64,000 nt of DNA from Halorubrum rubrum (GTDB lineage: Archaea; Halobacteriota; Halobacteria; Halobacteriales; Haloferacaceae). The position numbers and the translations under genes were made by a program. The stretch lies in assembly GCF_024494685.1 (NCBI RefSeq), contig NZ_JANHDM010000008.1:1-64000 (forward strand), written 5' to 3'. This document shows, one piece after another, positions 5,056 through 12,835 of this stretch. How positions within the stretch are numbered: the first letter of the stretch is position 1; each line of letters starts with the position of its first letter. The notes beneath the pieces were generated by a model. That model was given only the letters and a program-made list of their open reading frames with translations. It had not been told where the DNA came from and searched no databases.

Positions 5056-5964
5056 GTCAACGACGGGTATCTCGAGGCGCACTACGCGCAGCCGGGCGAG
5101 TGCGATGGCGCCGCTGCCGGAGGACGACGGCCGCAAGCCCGGTGACCAGCAGGCCTGGACGTCGGAACAGCGCCACGCCCTTACCCGCTACGTCGACGAA
5201 CAGGCCCGCGACACTGTCGAGACGTACACGACACTCCCGGAGGAACTTCCCCCATGAATAAGCAGCGAGCACGCTACGCGGCGCTGAAGGCGGCTCGTGA
5301 CCGGGCGCTGGTGTTCGTGCTCGCGTACACAGCTGTCCGCGTTGGGGAACTCCTCCGAGATCCAAACGACCCGCGTCGGCGCGGCGTCCGCTGGGAGGAT
5401 CTCTCCCTCGACGACGGAAGTATGGACGTCTACCGGAAGAAACAGCAGTGGGACGCCGCCAGTCTACCTGACCCGGTGATCTCGCTGCTCCGGAGCTACC
5501 GCCAGCTGATGGATCCAGCCACGAAGCGCTGGCCGGTGTTCCCGACGTTCGACCAACGGACGCTCGCAGAACTCGTCGAGGAAGAGCTAGCCGAACGAGG
5601 GGAACGCCCAGAAGCGAGTACTGAGTGTCGTAACGAATACGCCCGCGACCTCCTGCTGGCGCTCGATGAGGGAATTCGACCGCTGTCGATCACGACGGAC
5701 GGCGCACGGTCGATTCTTCAACGACTCTCGGAGGCCGCAGAGATCGATATCGATCATCCAAAACACGATTACCTCGCTCCGCATGGCGGTCGACGCAGGA
5801 TGGGTGAGGTGCTTGTCCGGGCGTTCGGGTACACGGTGGCGGCCAGGTATCTCGATAACTCCGAAGAGATGGTTCGGGAGCGGTACTCTCACACCGAGGC
5901 TGGCAAACTCGGTGATGTGGCGACAGAAGCACTCAACGAAGTCGACTCTCTGAACCGTACGTGA
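5056..5964 (+). pseudogene. Tyrosine recombinase (phage-type integrase), frameshifted and 5'-truncated
   Basis: Three consecutive reading frames together encode the catalytic part of a tyrosine recombinase. NDGYLEAHYAQPG is read in one frame from about 5059. MAPLPEDDGRKPGDQQAWTS follows in a second frame from 5105. From 5254 an open 236-residue frame runs to the stop. That last part carries the catalytic Arg (AYTAVRVGELL), the H-x-x-R box (APHGGRRRMGE) and a candidate nucleophile Tyr (RERYSH). The start of the gene is absent. Two frameshifts and the missing N-terminus make it very likely inactive. It is probably what remains of the integrase of an integrated plasmid or virus in this accessory region. 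The 5254 ATG overlaps the preceding stop, so expression of the C-terminal piece alone cannot be excluded. Confidence 0.75.
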
Positions 5965-7028: not shown

Positions 7029-8012
7029 TCAGAATATCAGTATCTGTGCGAGTGTGCCGACGAAAAAGAGCACTACCAAGAACGCGACCCCGGTCTTTTG
7101 GATTCGCTTTCCATAGGCGTCAAGCTCATAGTTGCCGATACAGATGGTGACGAGCCGCGTTGGATGTGTGAACGGGCTTGGCGGACGTGGGTCCGGGATC
7201 CGGTCACGGAGTCGCCTGTATTCGGTGAACGACCAGACGCTGTAGAGCGATACTGAGATGACCAGCGTGATCGCCGCCAGAAATACGATCCCGAGTAGCA
7301 CACCGCTCGGATCCGTCAGTTCGACTTGTAGGTGGACTGGTTCGTCACTCCCGGATCCCACGAAGAGAAGAACCGCCGCAACACTCACTACCGAGGCCGG
7401 TAGCACGAATAATGCTATCTTGAGTAGCCGTATACTGAGGCTGTGGACTGTCCCTCGGTCGACACCGAACAGTGTTTGATACCGTGTCGAGGTGTATTCG
7501 TGTTCGGAACGGAGCCCTGTCTCAGCCCCTGGTTTTCGCGCACCGATTGCGTTGAGCGCGGTAAGGAGCAGACCGAGCCCACCGATAGCCATGAATTCGA
7601 ATGAACTTGTTATCGTCTGCCGCTCAAGGAACCCATCACTCGGGTCGGCAGGGTCGACGTATGCCGTCACCGTCTCACCTGCTTCATATGGCTCAATCGC
7701 TGACTGGGCGTCTGCTCGCGTATCATACGATGGGCTAATACTACCGGGGAACAGTTGGTCACCGGTATATTGGGTTCCCTGGAACTGATAGGCAAACTCG
7801 ATTTGAACGTAGTAATCCGAGCTCCCGCGGCTCTCCGACTGGTAGACGGATGCCTCCTCGATCGTCGCTTCGACTGTCACGGCATCGTCGACCGCTTCGG
7901 ACTGTTGAACATAGTCGTACCCGCCGAAGGTGATCCCTGATAGACAGACGAGCACGATAATAATAGTGCCCTTTGTGACTCGAACCGGTGTGCCTCGAAC
8001 GGCGAACTCCAT
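7029..8012 (-). CDS. DUF3592-type membrane protein
   Basis: A 327-residue membrane protein. One transmembrane segment lies near residues 13-32, followed by an extracytoplasmic beta-rich domain. That domain includes the VTAYVDPADPSDGFLER stretch typical of DUF3592 proteins (Y-x-P-x-(D/N)P-x-x). Further hydrophobic segments occur at about 137-158, 198-222, 236-260 and the C-terminus. The family has no assigned function. The start Met at 8012 is preceded by AT-rich DNA. It appears to be monocistronic. Confidence 0.75.
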   Translation of the reverse strand: MEFAVRGTPVRVTKGTIIIVLVCLSGITFGGYDYVQQSEAVDDAVTVEATIEEASVYQSESRGSSDYYVQIEFAYQFQGTQYTGDQLFPGSISPSYDTRADAQSAIEPYEAGETVTAYVDPADPSDGFLERQTITSSFEFMAIGGLGLLLTALNAIGARKPGAETGLRSEHEYTSTRYQTLFGVDRGTVHSLSIRLLKIALFVLPASVVSVAAVLLFVGSGSDEPVHLQVELTDPSGVLLGIVFLAAITLVISVSLYSVWSFTEYRRLRDRIPDPRPPSPFTHPTRLVTICIGNYELDAYGKRIQKTGVAFLVVLFFVGTLAQILIF

Positions 8013-8425: not shown

Positions 8426-8629
8426 CTAGTCGTTGTTCTCTTCCGGCTGGAAGATGTCCTCGATGTGGCACTCGAAATGGGCGGCAAGCTTGAAGGCCAA
8501 CTCCAGCGATGGATCGTAGCGCTCACGCTCGATGGCGTTGATCGTCTGTCGAGTGACCCCGACTGCCTCAGCCAATTCACCTTGGCTGAGTCCTGCCGCC
8601 TCGCGTCGTCGTGGAAGGTTATTCTCCAT
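8426..8629 (-). CDS. XRE/Cro-like HTH regulator
   Basis: From the Met at 8629 the protein is 67 residues and is almost entirely one Cro/C1-type helix-turn-helix: RREAAGLSQGELAEAVGVTR with the recognition part RQTINAIERERYDPSL. It ends in a short acidic tail. This YozG-like short HTH form is often encoded next to a DUF2178-type membrane protein, as here, where the upstream gene ends 5 bp before. I chose Met 8629 because the longer frame adds a non-HTH extension that overlaps the neighbour. It probably represses its own operon; a candidate operator palindrome sits at the start of the first gene. Confidence 0.85.
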   Translation of the reverse strand: MENNLPRRREAAGLSQGELAEAVGVTRQTINAIERERYDPSLELAFKLAAHFECHIEDIFQPEENND

Positions 8630-8634
8630 TATGG

Positions 8635-9063
8635 TTATCGTCGCTTGACGATCCCGTAGGAGACGCCCCACATCAAAAAGAGCCCCGAAGCCAGGAATAT
8701 CGCACCGTTCACTTCTGGCGGCGTCTCGATGCGTCTCGCAGCCTCAAGCACGTAGATCACCGGGATGACGGATAGTCCACCCACGAATAAGACACCCAGC
8801 GTCAAGCCGCTAGCACGGTTGTAGAGATCCGTATCTCGTTCGTCTTGGAGCGGTACGTCGGTGAGTTTGGGAGCGAGAAATGAGATTCCGCCGCCGAGCC
8901 ACACGCCAACACAGTAGATGCTCGTTCCGATGAGTTCTCGTCCTGTGGCCATCCCGGCGAGTAATCCGACGATCGACACGGTCACTATAGCGTACACGCT
9001 CCGATAGTACAGACGGCGAGCTCGTCCTGGGTCACCCGTCTCAGACACTATGTTGTCAAACAT
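8635..9063 (-). CDS. DUF2178-type four-helix membrane protein
   Basis: A 142-residue protein with four hydrophobic segments (about residues 22-42, 45-65, 88-110 and 120-138) and a conserved-looking linker LTDVPLQDERDTDLYNRASG between the second and third. That DER(D/E) linker is a hallmark of DUF2178 proteins. Function is unknown; the gene pairs with the HTH regulator that follows 5 bp downstream. The promoter region directly abuts the ATG and includes a 13-bp palindrome, indicating a leaderless or near-leaderless transcript under repressor control. Confidence 0.8.
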   Translation of the reverse strand: MFDNIVSETGDPGRARRLYYRSVYAIVTVSIVGLLAGMATGRELIGTSIYCVGVWLGGGISFLAPKLTDVPLQDERDTDLYNRASGLTLGVLFVGGLSVIPVIYVLEAARRIETPPEVNGAIFLASGLFLMWGVSYGIVKRR

Positions 9064-9064
9064 G

Positions 9065-9077
9065 CTTTACAGTAAAG
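9065..9077. promoter_or_regulatory. Palindromic operator CTTTACnGTAAAG, copy 1
   Basis: A perfect 6+1+6 palindrome lies one base before the ATG of the DUF2178 gene and is followed by AT-rich promoter-like DNA. The same palindrome, with matching flanks, recurs at 11227-11239. Its position over the probable transcription start suggests repression by the HTH protein encoded in the operon; this is inference from position and symmetry. Confidence 0.6.
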
Positions 9078-9123
9078 TATGTTTTACAGCCAAAATAAAT
9101 CTTTGTCTGCGAAATGATCGTGT

Positions 9124-11028
9124 TCAACCCAGCCGGACCCACAGCAAATTCCAGTACTGTAGGAGCCAGTACAAGACGCTCATCGCGCCAACAACCGCCG
9201 AGTAGTGGACACGAGTGACGAGCGACCAGTCGTCTCGGAGCCACGCACGAGCCGCGTAGGCGACTGCGCCAGCGGTGGCGATGACTCCCAGCGTCGGCAC
9301 GACGAACACGACCTCGAACCACGCGGGCGGACGATTGAACAGCGTCGGCCTGTCCATCGACGCCACGGCGACGATGACACCGACAAAGGACAACACGAAC
9401 AGCAAGAGTCCGGCGAGGCCTGCGCCAGCCACCCATCGAGCGCGAGTAACAGATTGTGGTGGTGACTCGCCACCGCGATACCGACGCCACCCGCGGGCTG
9501 CCGGCCATCCCACCAACCCGGTCAGCGCGATGACAGACGCCGCCACCGTTAGCCATCCCTGTACCGATAGCTGCTCGTGGTAGCCGATCTGCTCGTACGC
9601 GCTCAGCCCGCTCAACAGGTGGGTCACTTCACCATCCGTCTCACGGAACAGCAGCGTCGAATCATCCTCAACGTGTTCGAATACGAGCGGTTCAACTTCG
9701 ACCCATTCGTCTGTCCTGTCTCCCTGTTTGGTTACGAGCCGCCCGTCGTCAGCGATTCGGACGTCGACCGGCTGGCCCGTGAGCAGTCCGTAGACGAGTT
9801 TTTCGGCACTGACGGTGTCGGTCGTGTTCACCGACCGGTATCGACCCTCGAGTTCGTCGGCACGCTCGGGCATCCCGTCGGGCGTTCGTCGATCTCCGCT
9901 CGAATCGACGGGTGCGAATCGGTCGAAGAGTGCGTCTACGACTTCCTGCTTCGCGCCGGACGCCTCGTTGCCGTGGGCGACGACGAAGAGGCCGACATCT
10001 TCCTCTGGGATCAGTGCGAACTCAGCGGCGAACTGCGGGACACTGCCGCCGTGACGCACTAGTCGAGTATCACCACGCGATCGCTCGAAGAGTCCGAACG
10101 CCATCCCGTCGACCCGCTCGTGCGGGGTGAACCACTGCTGGTGCATCGAATCGATCGCACGCTCCGAGAGGACCCGTTCGCCGTCGGCGACGCCACCGTG
10201 TAGATGCGCCTGGAGTAACCGCGCCATGTCTGTCCCGGTCGTATGAAGCCCAGATGCGGGCGACACGTCGGAGTAGAAACTCACAACGTCTTCGACGGCT
10301 GTTTCCTCGGCGGGCACGAGATCGGGCGGGGCCGGTTGGAACGTGCTGTTCGACATGCCTAACGGCGCCAACACGTTTTCCGTGACGAACGACCCGAACC
10401 GTTGTCCTGAAATGTCCGCGATCAGTTGGCCGGTGAGCGCAGCGGCGTAGTTGGTGTACTGGTGGAGTTCGCCGGGTGGCCGGACACGTGCCGGTACGTC
10501 TGTCGATACTGCCTCAGCGAGCGGCCGGATGTACTCAGGCTCGCGTGCCGAGTCGCCTCGTCCGCGGACTTCGAATCCCGGTGTGTGGGTGGCGAGATGT
10601 TCGAGCGTGATCGGTTCGTCGTACGTTTCGGGAAGATCGACAGTTTCGAGGTGGTCGTCCACCGGTGCGTCTAGTGTGATCTGCCCGCGATCGACGACCT
10701 GCATCGCAGCCGTCCAGGTAGCGACCTTCGAGACGGAGCCGACGCGAAAGAGCGTCTCATCTGCTCGAACCGGGACGTCCTCGCTTCGAAAGGCGTGGCC
10801 GTAGCCGCTCGTGTGGACCTCGTCGCCGTCGACGACGGCGACCGTCAGCCCGCCCGCATCGTGGTCAGCTAACGCGCGGGTGGCCGCGTCGTCGATGAGC
10901 GCATCCACGCTGGTCGTCTGAGTCGGTTCGGTCGAACCACTGGCGAGACCGCTGGCCGCGACGGCGGTGCCAGCGCCGACGGCCGCGGATCGCGACAGGA
11001 ATCCGCGTCGTGAGAGTGTGGAGGGCAT
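9124..11028 (-). CDS. Tat-exported serine hydrolase (class C beta-lactamase/PBP4-like) with C-terminal membrane domain
   Basis: A 634-residue protein. Residues 1-32 are a Tat signal (SRRGFLSRSAAVGAG). The beta-lactamase/penicillin-binding-protein-like domain has the catalytic SVSK at 98-101, YTN at 191-193 and HGG at 326-328, so the active site looks complete. A linker domain and about four hydrophobic segments (roughly 490-630) anchor the C-terminus in the membrane. Haloarchaea lack peptidoglycan, so the enzyme is more likely a peptidase or esterase of the DD-peptidase superfamily than a resistance enzyme. A second copy of the HTH operator palindrome lies about 200 bp upstream, so it may share regulation with the DUF2178/HTH cassette. 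Confidence 0.85.
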   Translation of the reverse strand: MPSTLSRRGFLSRSAAVGAGTAVAASGLASGSTEPTQTTSVDALIDDAATRALADHDAGGLTVAVVDGDEVHTSGYGHAFRSEDVPVRADETLFRVGSVSKVATWTAAMQVVDRGQITLDAPVDDHLETVDLPETYDEPITLEHLATHTPGFEVRGRGDSAREPEYIRPLAEAVSTDVPARVRPPGELHQYTNYAAALTGQLIADISGQRFGSFVTENVLAPLGMSNSTFQPAPPDLVPAEETAVEDVVSFYSDVSPASGLHTTGTDMARLLQAHLHGGVADGERVLSERAIDSMHQQWFTPHERVDGMAFGLFERSRGDTRLVRHGGSVPQFAAEFALIPEEDVGLFVVAHGNEASGAKQEVVDALFDRFAPVDSSGDRRTPDGMPERADELEGRYRSVNTTDTVSAEKLVYGLLTGQPVDVRIADDGRLVTKQGDRTDEWVEVEPLVFEHVEDDSTLLFRETDGEVTHLLSGLSAYEQIGYHEQLSVQGWLTVAASVIALTGLVGWPAARGWRRYRGGESPPQSVTRARWVAGAGLAGLLLFVLSFVGVIVAVASMDRPTLFNRPPAWFEVVFVVPTLGVIATAGAVAYAARAWLRDDWSLVTRVHYSAVVGAMSVLYWLLQYWNLLWVRLG

Positions 11029-11226
11029 CGGTGGGAATGTGTGAAAGACGATTCACGCCGTGAAAGGCGGGACAAGTCGTCTGATTGAGCGTGTACCTGC
11101 GTTGCTCCGGTGAAGGTGGCCAGCCGGATGTTGTGGTTTGAGACAGCCATATCTCTACCTAACCCGGTAGTCGCGCGAGGTGACCACCTTCGCACCATCA
11201 TCACGGGAGTCGTGGTGTCAAACACA

Positions 11227-11239
11227 CTTTACAGTAAAG
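11227..11239. promoter_or_regulatory. Palindromic operator CTTTACnGTAAAG, copy 2
   Basis: Identical to the palindrome at 9065-9077 and placed the same way relative to a start-like codon: a GTG at 11225 opens a frame MFDTTTP, and the true gene at 9063 opens MFDNIVS. The flanks also match (GTCAAACA on one side, AATCTTT on the other). This is either a duplicated promoter serving the serine hydrolase gene or the relic of a second DUF2178/HTH cassette. Confidence 0.55.
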
Positions 11240-11283
11240 CTTACTTTCCATGTTATATGAATCTTTATTTTCAGAATCGGTTG

Positions 11284-12147
11284 TCAGCTCGATCCCACGA
11301 GGGTGAGAAGCCCAAACGCACCTGCCAAGCCAAGCGCCGCGACGACTAAATCAATCGTCCAGCGAAGCAACCAGTCTCGCACCCGCGCTCTCTCGGGGTG
11401 AATACCGAACCGGACCGTTAGGTGTCGAACGATCACGACCCACGTGACAAGCACGAACCCGAACAGAAACGGCCACACGTCGATTCCGAGTCGAACCTGT
11501 ACGATATAGACCGGGAGTACGCCGATCAAAATCGGCGTTGTTGCGATCCGGGCCACAGGACGGAGCGGCCGGCGCTCTGGCGTCGGGCGATCGCCAGGCG
11601 TCAATTCCGGGACTGGCACACCACATGACCGAAAGTGGCCCGCAATTTCGCGTACCTGTTCGCGCGGTATGAAGATCCCTTCCGGTTTCGTGACAGTAGG
11701 AGATTGATAGCGGAGTCGAACGGCAACGATCGGGCCGAGTGGAATCAATTGAAGCGTATCTACCGTGTCGAGGCCGATCGTCCGTTCATCGGTGCCGGTG
11801 GCCGCTGCGAACTGTTCTGTCTCGGGATCGCCGAATTCAGGTTTGATCGTCAACGTGCGCTTCTCGGGATCGAGCCGGTAGTGATTCGTTTTGAGTCCTG
11901 CGCTCGAAAACCATACCATCAACCACAGACACGCACAGAGGATCACATATGCGACGGCTGCCCGAGAGCCGAAGACAGTCATCGAACCGAGAACCGCAAA
12001 CGGGAGTATGATGAAAAAGCCGACCCAGATCACAGGATGCATCGTGACGATGAATGCCGCCATCCGGTGTGGGAGCCGACGAATGCCGTGTAGGTCCGTC
12101 TCCCAACTGAGACCAGAATCTGCTCGCTCGATGTGAGTGGAGGGCAT
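11284..12147 (-). CDS. Membrane protein with PH-like central domain, unknown
   Basis: A 287-residue protein with two hydrophobic segments near residues 35-85, a soluble beta-rich middle (about 90-185) with the general look of a bacterial PH-like domain (LDPEKRTLTI, then RLRYQSPT), and further membrane segments at about 205-240 and 262-284. No catalytic motif is visible and I cannot name the family. The gene is transcribed towards the serine hydrolase gene, with the second operator copy between them. Confidence 0.6.
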   Translation of the reverse strand: MPSTHIERADSGLSWETDLHGIRRLPHRMAAFIVTMHPVIWVGFFIILPFAVLGSMTVFGSRAAVAYVILCACLWLMVWFSSAGLKTNHYRLDPEKRTLTIKPEFGDPETEQFAAATGTDERTIGLDTVDTLQLIPLGPIVAVRLRYQSPTVTKPEGIFIPREQVREIAGHFRSCGVPVPELTPGDRPTPERRPLRPVARIATTPILIGVLPVYIVQVRLGIDVWPFLFGFVLVTWVVIVRHLTVRFGIHPERARVRDWLLRWTIDLVVAALGLAGAFGLLTLVGSS

Positions 12148-12373: not shown

Positions 12374-12835
12374 ATGACGCGGCGACGGCGTTTCCTGACA
12401 GCAGTCGCAAGCGGGACCATACTGGGGCTGGCAGGCTGTAACTCGGGGACCTTCGGACCGAACGAACGCCAGCTTGACGCTCGACGGACGGACCTACAGG
12501 AGCGAAACGACGCGGTCGTCGGAATGGTGACTCCCGACAACGCGTTCGCGCCGGCGACAGTGACCATCAGCGTCGGCGAACGCCTCGGCTGGATAAACGA
12601 CTCTGAGTGGGGTCATACTGTCACGGCCTACGAGGACGGTATCCCTGACGAAGCCGTATTTTTCTCGACCGGAGAGTACGACACGGAACAGGCGGCGCGA
12701 GATGCCTGGCCGGACGGTGACCTCGAAGTCGGTGAAGCATACGAACACACCTTCGAGGTTGCCAGCGAGTACGACTATTTCTGTGTCCCGCACGAGGACG
12801 AGATGGTCGGCACAGTGATCGTCAAGGACGAGTGA
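12374..12835 (+). CDS. Halocyanin-like blue-copper lipoprotein
   Basis: A 153-residue cupredoxin. The N-terminus is a Tat lipoprotein signal (TRRRRFLTAVASG, lipobox LAGC near residue 22). Copper ligands are visible as His in GHTVTAYEDG and as Cys, His and Met in YFCVPHEDEM, the classic C-x2-H-x3-M arrangement near the C-terminus. Such proteins are mobile electron carriers at the outer face of the haloarchaeal membrane. The strand EVGEAYEHTFEVASEYDYFC is typical of the family. It stands alone, with AT-rich DNA before the start (about 12350-12370). Confidence 0.9.
   Translation: MTRRRRFLTAVASGTILGLAGCNSGTFGPNERQLDARRTDLQERNDAVVGMVTPDNAFAPATVTISVGERLGWINDSEWGHTVTAYEDGIPDEAVFFSTGEYDTEQAARDAWPDGDLEVGEAYEHTFEVASEYDYFCVPHEDEMVGTVIVKDE

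Follow-up and report, generated by a model that had tools for sequence, protein, structure and literature searches.

A shared 35-bp operator may place a secreted serine hydrolase under a CylR2-like regulatory cassette in Halorubrum rubrum

The window considered here is the whole 64,000-nucleotide stretch of DNA analyzed, positions 1-64,000 of contig NZ_JANHDM010000008.1 from Halorubrum rubrum (GCF_024494685.1); G-numbers and L-numbers denote comparison genomes and loci, and the order and the genus are those of the source organism. A 287-aa membrane protein, operator 2, a serine hydrolase, operator 1, a DUF2178-like protein, and a helix-turn-helix (HTH) protein follow one another on the minus strand (Table 1), and we refer to the last two genes as the cassette. 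Operator 1 immediately precedes and overlaps the start of the DUF2178-like gene, and the cassette TATA-like box ends 3 bp ahead of it. The HTH reading frame in the ORF listing begins at a GTG upstream of the ATG used here. The hydrolase has a twin-arginine-like N-terminus and three C-terminal hydrophobic segments; it scores 178.7 bits against PF00144, well above the cut-off of 27, and carries SVSK at 98, YTN at 191, and HGG at 326, thus presenting all of the SxxK, YxN, and HxG motifs of a PF00144 serine hydrolase. No match in Pfam was found for the 287-aa membrane protein, and its gene also adjoins the operator in G153, G230, G300, and G316. The region is flanked by a DUF3592 protein (7029-8012) and a small copper-binding, plastocyanin-like protein (12374-12835). 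The region may be mobile, since a window frame at 5254-5964 resembles a tyrosine recombinase in its catalytic part.

Table 1. Genes and regulatory features around the two operators
Feature	Coordinates	Strand	Basis and details
XRE/HTH_3 regulator, CylR2-like, 67 aa from ATG at 8629	8426-8629	-	Pfam and CylR2 match
DUF2178-like small membrane protein, 142 aa, three hydrophobic segments	8635-9063	-	PF09946, 21.4 bits
Operator 1, 35-bp four-box element, core 9065-9077	9054-9088	-	arms TGTAAAA and TTTGACA; profile R1 E 9.7e-12
Cassette TATA-like box TTTATTTT	9092-9099	-	sequence and column counts in 47 aligned operators; predicted promoter role
Secreted serine hydrolase, 634 aa, beta-lactamase fold PF00144	9124-11028	-	Pfam, motifs
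Hydrolase leader, about 200 nt, probably non-coding	11029-11225	-	frame-breaking indels relative to G230
Operator 2, same 35-bp element, core 11227-11239	11216-11250	-	arms TGGAAAG and TTTGACA; profile R1 E 2.1e-10
Hydrolase TATA-like box TTCATATAA	11253-11261	-	sequence; predicted promoter role
Membrane protein, 287 aa, upstream neighbor of operator 2	11284-12147	-	ORF, Pfam scan

The earlier note had pointed to the palindrome CTTTACaGTAAAG at 9065-9077 and 11227-11239 with matching flanks, GTCAAACA and AATCTTT, and both copies are present as it claimed, the latter flank being the complement of an AAAGATT at the TATA-like box. These are the two exact matches in the window, for which window dinucleotide statistics predict 0.0004 per 64 kb and 0.019 per 3.23 Mb. 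The genome-wide scan that the note had proposed, covering 3.23 Mb with up to one mismatch, returned only the two window sites, compared with a chance expectation of about 1 per strand when one mismatch is allowed. A looser pattern added six further matches in the window, all with three mismatches, for a total of eight that equals chance (mean 7.56).

The likeness of the two sites exceeds the 13-bp palindrome and takes in a 35-bp element with two outer arms. We aligned 47 distinct sites that had been picked for the core (46 exact and one with a single mismatch) and oriented them to the downstream gene. The outer arms read TGTAAAG from -17 and CTTTACA or TTTGACA to +17; all 47 sites carry TG at -17/-16 and AAA from -14 to -12, and the center base of the coding strand is T in 46. 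A TATA-like region is centered about 27 bp ahead of the palindrome center, with T at -27 in 42 of the 47. The operator can be read from these columns as two adjoining inverted repeats, TGTAAAGn4CTTTACA, with a common center base, an arrangement that would fit two dimers. The archaeal TATA box lies about 25-27 bp ahead of the transcription start, and thus the predicted start falls at the operator center.

This architecture bears on a further detail in the earlier note, the start-like codon followed by Phe-Asp codons at both places. The codons are there, TTT GAC coming directly after ATG or GTG when the minus strand is read, and the likeness appears to be largely that of the operator arm TTTGACA, because of which Phe-Asp is spelled out at both sites. 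At site 1, where the start codon lies at +8, ATG TTT GAC falls partly within the gene-side arm. At the hydrolase site the corresponding codons vary, with GTG TTT in the window, ATG TTT in G230, GTG CTT in G300, and GTA TTT in G316. As the note had stated, the second site lies about 200 bp upstream of the hydrolase (197 nt from GTG 11225 to ATG 11028). Operator 2 scores below operator 1 in the profile described below (41.8 versus 46.1 bits), and its left arm begins with TGG versus TGT.

Profile R1 spans 58 positions, covering the operator and TATA region, and was built from 42 of the 47 sites, including both window sites. At E<=10 it finds only the two window sites in the source genome, each matched on both strands. 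Of the 52 genus genomes, 27 have a match at E<=0.01, and of the 392 order genomes, 159 have one at the stricter E<=1e-9, G006 carrying operators at three of the places listed. A sample of 294 genomes from the phylum, which itself includes members of the order, gave 22 genomes with the operator, all of them from that order. The exact palindrome is present in 75 of 195 order genomes, compared with eight for a control pattern written backwards, and 86 of the 195 have a protein similar to DUF2178. The two occur together in 60 genomes (Fisher p 5e-16). Of the 86 genomes with a DUF2178 match, 26 lack the exact palindrome, and among the 15 with the palindrome and no DUF2178 match at least seven carry the cassette by profile (L033, L038, L040, L051, and L054-L056). 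Two others of these 15, G083 (L053) and G112 (L083), were dropped as chance matches because the outer arms are absent from their palindromes. On this comparative evidence, the operator is a conserved regulatory element.

We compiled 181 operator sites without duplicate flanks, a partly biased collection, since loci were fetched via DUF2178 similarity or the core palindrome; it includes 80 further stretches taken among the R1 matches listed for the order. The first recognized downstream gene was DUF2178-like or HTH at 148 sites, an ABC ATPase at 15, and either a beta-lactamase-fold hydrolase of the window family or an alpha/beta-hydrolase lipoprotein at seven each, and none of these genes was recognized at the remaining four, one of which (L137) is the reverse reading of the cassette site of G316. 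The 148 cassette sites pool 104 where DUF2178 comes first with 44 where the HTH does, because the stop-to-stop frames overlap, and all 44 also have DUF2178; the cassette frame opens within 100 nt of the operator at 143 of the 148. A search by palindrome, free of any protein criterion, yielded 30 loci with the cassette directly downstream at 22, an ABC ATPase at three, and the lipoprotein at three, the other two being one palindrome directly after a cassette and one chance-like match. The ABC protein analyzed matches PF00005, and the lipoprotein analyzed is an alpha/beta hydrolase with a DUF3887 domain. Five genomes (G147, G143, G062, G070, and G325) have the cassette as well, in the same orientation and some way beyond the ABC gene.

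A hydrolase of the window family stands directly behind the operator in G104, G006, and G046, and in G398 a PF00144 hydrolase lies downstream of the cassette; those of G006 and G398 match PF00144. The hydrolase that the operator precedes in G104 is a paralog with 40% identity rather than its 74% ortholog, and the source genome has three PF00144 genes in total. A serine hydrolase is thereby found directly behind the operator in three separate lineages and as an operon member in a fourth. We also observed operators after the cassette and ahead of other frames in G165 (L187/L062) and G056 (L025), the frame in G165 being a 97-aa putative membrane protein.

The cassette has the makeup of a known kind of regulatory pair. 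The HTH protein is small and consists of a single domain, HTH_3 (PF01381, 61.9 bits with a cut-off of 23), as in XRE proteins of the CylR2 type. Its closest PDB match is CylR2 itself (2xiu, E 5.7e-15; 1utx, E 1.6e-13), with residues 2-61 of the 66 submitted aligning to CylR2 residues 4-63. All 145 distinct HTH sequences found within 5 kb downstream of operator sites keep the same residues (R, Q, N, E, R, R, and Y) in the recognition helix and the stretch that follows it. The DUF2178-like gene, whose end lies 5 nt ahead of the HTH ATG, supplies a membrane partner beside the regulator, as in CylR1/CylR2. The best and only Pfam match of this membrane protein, PF09946, falls below the family cut-off of 22.8 bits, which 3 of 10 relatives reach. 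We regard the 67-aa HTH as the putative repressor of both operators and the DUF2178-like protein as a putative sensor or anti-repressor.

Hydrolase orthologs with at least 81% identity occur in seven of 52 genus genomes (the window, G300, G316, G296, G298, G281, and G120), and G230, from another genus, has one at 96%. The operator precedes the hydrolase in the window, G230, G300, and G316, all of which have a window-type cassette. No operator was found ahead of the close orthologs (81-85%) of G120, G281, G296, and G298, whose genomes lack a window-type DUF2178; in G120, G281, and G298 the operator occurs at other places in the genome. This four-to-four split may reflect a single evolutionary event. 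More distant orthologs from other genera (G197, G104, G214, G224, and G206; 56-74%) have no palindrome with up to two mismatches within 1.5 kb, and operator 2 is therefore absent from 9 of the 13 hydrolase orthologs inspected. In G120 (L143), where the palindrome is gone, the hydrolase gene and the upstream gene for the 287-aa membrane protein are both split into several frames.

Within the genus, close DUF2178 proteins (76-92%) occur besides the window only in G300 and G316. In G230 the hydrolase is followed directly by operator, DUF2178, and HTH. In G316 the hydrolase operator is kept though the cassette operator lies 16 kb away on the same contig, and a possible cause of this separation is a putative transposase-like frame just upstream of the G316 cassette (L137, from about 5336). 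Comparison of L136, L137, and L138 with 8426-11028 gives identities to the window of 93% for the hydrolase and 76% for DUF2178 in G300, and of 92% for both in G316. Such unequal divergence of the two genes suggests that the cassette has been exchanged beside the hydrolase.

We consider it probable that the HTH repressor acts on both operators and thus co-regulates the cassette and the hydrolase. The earlier note had offered this as one of two readings, and it is well supported comparatively, the conserved operator lying mostly ahead of the cassette itself. Drawing on the sequence, conservation, spacing, and phyletic and genomic association established directly here, we infer a mechanism that extends to DNA binding, repression, the transcription start, the leader length, and sensing. 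The CylR2-like HTH would bind both sites, each being a pair of adjoining dimer sites, which at site 1 would be TGTAAAACATACTTTACT and TGTAAAGCATGTTTGACA with the center base in common. The transcription start would lie at the operator center, about 27 bp beyond the TATA-like box, so that bound repressor would block polymerase. At site 1 the outcome would be autoregulation of DUF2178-HTH from a near-leaderless transcript, and at site 2 repression of the secreted serine hydrolase, whose transcript would carry a leader some 200 nt long. The DUF2178-like protein is probably the sensor of a signal from the envelope or from outside the cell and would free the repressor in response, as proposed for CylR1/CylR2. 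Several observations weigh against this reading: the nine hydrolase orthologs without operator 2, the 26 genomes with a DUF2178 match that lack the exact palindrome, the TGG arm and lower score of operator 2, the second CylR2-like gene described below, the length of the hydrolase leader, and the bias in the site collection from which the profile was also built.

The other reading in the earlier note was that the second site is the stub of a lost duplicate cassette, and it has support only as an account of where the hydrolase leader came from. G153 has two copies of the order upstream gene-operator-DUF2178-HTH, with no hydrolase between. The leader after the operator arm encodes FDTIAP(E/K)T in G120, G296, and G298, resembling DUF2178 starts (FDTVVPET and FDTLTPKT), and in the window the first 30 nt or so resemble the start of the DUF2178 gene. 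By two kinds of shuffling, the likeness has p values of 0.0005-0.0009 in G120, G296, and G298, of which G120 and G296 are identical in this part of the leader, 0.0002-0.007 in G230 and G300, and 0.01-0.03 in the window and G316; in G281 it is not significant (0.11-0.12). The hydrolase leader thus probably descends from a DUF2178 gene start. In a scenario of promoter capture, the hydrolase would have acquired its promoter from the front end of a duplicated DUF2178 cassette and retained it because it thereby came under the regulator, and the operator would later have been lost in lineages without a close regulator, though the reverse order of events at site 2 is also conceivable.

Whether site 2 is now a functionless relic, a duplicate cassette having lost its body so that the hydrolase stands in its place, is a separate matter, since co-regulation and a stub origin are not mutually exclusive. 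The gene order of G153 and the DUF2178-like leaders, clear in G120, G296, and G298 and weak in the window, would suit a relic, as would the stub-like sequence that the four close orthologs without the palindrome retain. These observations support the relic as history, not as a present lack of function. Across the four genomes with the hydrolase operator, 0 of 25 operator columns vary versus 58 of 189 leader columns, with a p of 0.0004 that is no strict test because we specified the 25 positions ourselves and the four sequences are related. G316 retains its hydrolase operator with the cassette 16 kb off, and the operator precedes other hydrolases of the family in other lineages. We therefore consider a present loss of function unlikely, and site 2 is most likely a working operator, as judged from its conservation. 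It is very improbable that the sites owe their likeness to a recent tandem duplication or gene conversion and have no regulation in common. Their spacing of 2.16 kb, direct orientation, and alike flanks would be expected of such an event, as would the absence of an intervening hydrolase in G153, but in the four genomes concerned the left arm is TGGAAAG at every hydrolase site and TGTAAA at the cassette sites. Because the arms differ so consistently, the two operators are not recent copies, and the operator furthermore recurs at unlinked targets across the order.

A different regulator could also bind the palindrome, with the linked HTH merely another of its targets. The source genome indeed contains a second DUF2178-like/CylR2-like pair on C4 (L278, G000:C4:82177-82356), whose HTH is 62% identical to that of the window, and because of this second gene our assignment of the cognate protein draws on linkage and residue conservation. 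However, profile R1 finds no operator at the C4 pair, none of five related inverted-repeat patterns occurs in its 3.2-kb locus, and its recognition region reads E-N-G-R, as opposed to E-R-x-R in 145 of 145 operator-linked HTHs. We give this explanation very little credence next to regulation of both sites by the linked HTH. Without this operator and with a different recognition region, the C4 pair constitutes a natural specificity control.

The kind of system, a membrane protein paired with an XRE repressor, is known. In the cytolysin operon of Enterococcus faecalis, CylR1/CylR2 likewise joins a 66-aa XRE protein of solved structure with a membrane partner. According to PMC3709268, CylR2 occupies the promoter while the operon is inactive, induction needs CylR1, which is predicted to have three transmembrane segments, and the passage of the signal from CylR1 to CylR2 without phosphorylation is stated as not understood; PMC11343131 describes the prevalence of the system in other biosynthetic gene clusters as unexplored. 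The window system differs in its archaeal setting: its promoters are of the TATA type, and a 35-bp double site lies where transcription is predicted to start. Its cassette is co-directional with its target, whereas cylR1/cylR2 are divergent from theirs (PMC3709268). The target of CylR1/CylR2 is a lanthipeptide toxin operon; those observed here are serine hydrolases, an ABC ATPase/transporter, and the cassette itself. The CsmR operator of Haloferax volcanii (PMC13286277) is similarly a haloarchaeal promoter-proximal semi-palindrome beside a TATA box; its motif is TATCA(N4)TGATA, and CsmR regulates motility and cell shape. Open-licence PMC literature, which offers weak evidence of absence, returned nothing on DUF2178 or the operator motif, and nothing on the present system appeared among the matches listed for haloarchaeal XRE, CylR2, or operator work; what PMC6471424 says of a haloviral repressor has no bearing on it. 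The archaeal operator and target set were thus not found in the literature searched.

Taking these comparisons further, we propose tentatively, as a possibility we hold with less assurance than co-regulation at this locus, that the cassette is a widespread haloarchaeal counterpart of CylR1/CylR2. It would form a phosphorylation-free envelope switch that governs, via a 35-bp double operator placed where transcription starts, secreted serine hydrolases of two unrelated folds and an ABC transporter, perhaps in answer to peptide antimicrobials or surface damage. The hydrolases would have been recruited repeatedly, in the window lineage by capture of a duplicated cassette start. The locus offers a sharply defined archaeal operator with an assigned candidate regulator, and it predicts that surface enzymes and a transporter are jointly controlled throughout an order. 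It may also provide a tractable system for examining how, without phosphorylation, a CylR1-type membrane protein signals to its CylR2-type repressor.

Haloarchaeal leaders do not usually reach a length of about 200 nt. We considered a protein beginning at GTG 11225 (a 118-aa frame) and rejected it, since gaps break the frame between the window and G230 and G316 lacks a start codon. In a comparison of six of the seven leaders, conserved RNA structure was likewise unsupported, with a covariation term of +0.84, although 10 of 43 predicted pairs have changes on both sides. All seven orthologs measured have 191-199 nt between the operator arm and the hydrolase ATG, and on visual inspection the last 40 nt or so of the leader appear similar, even among orthologs without the operator that are about 70% identical.
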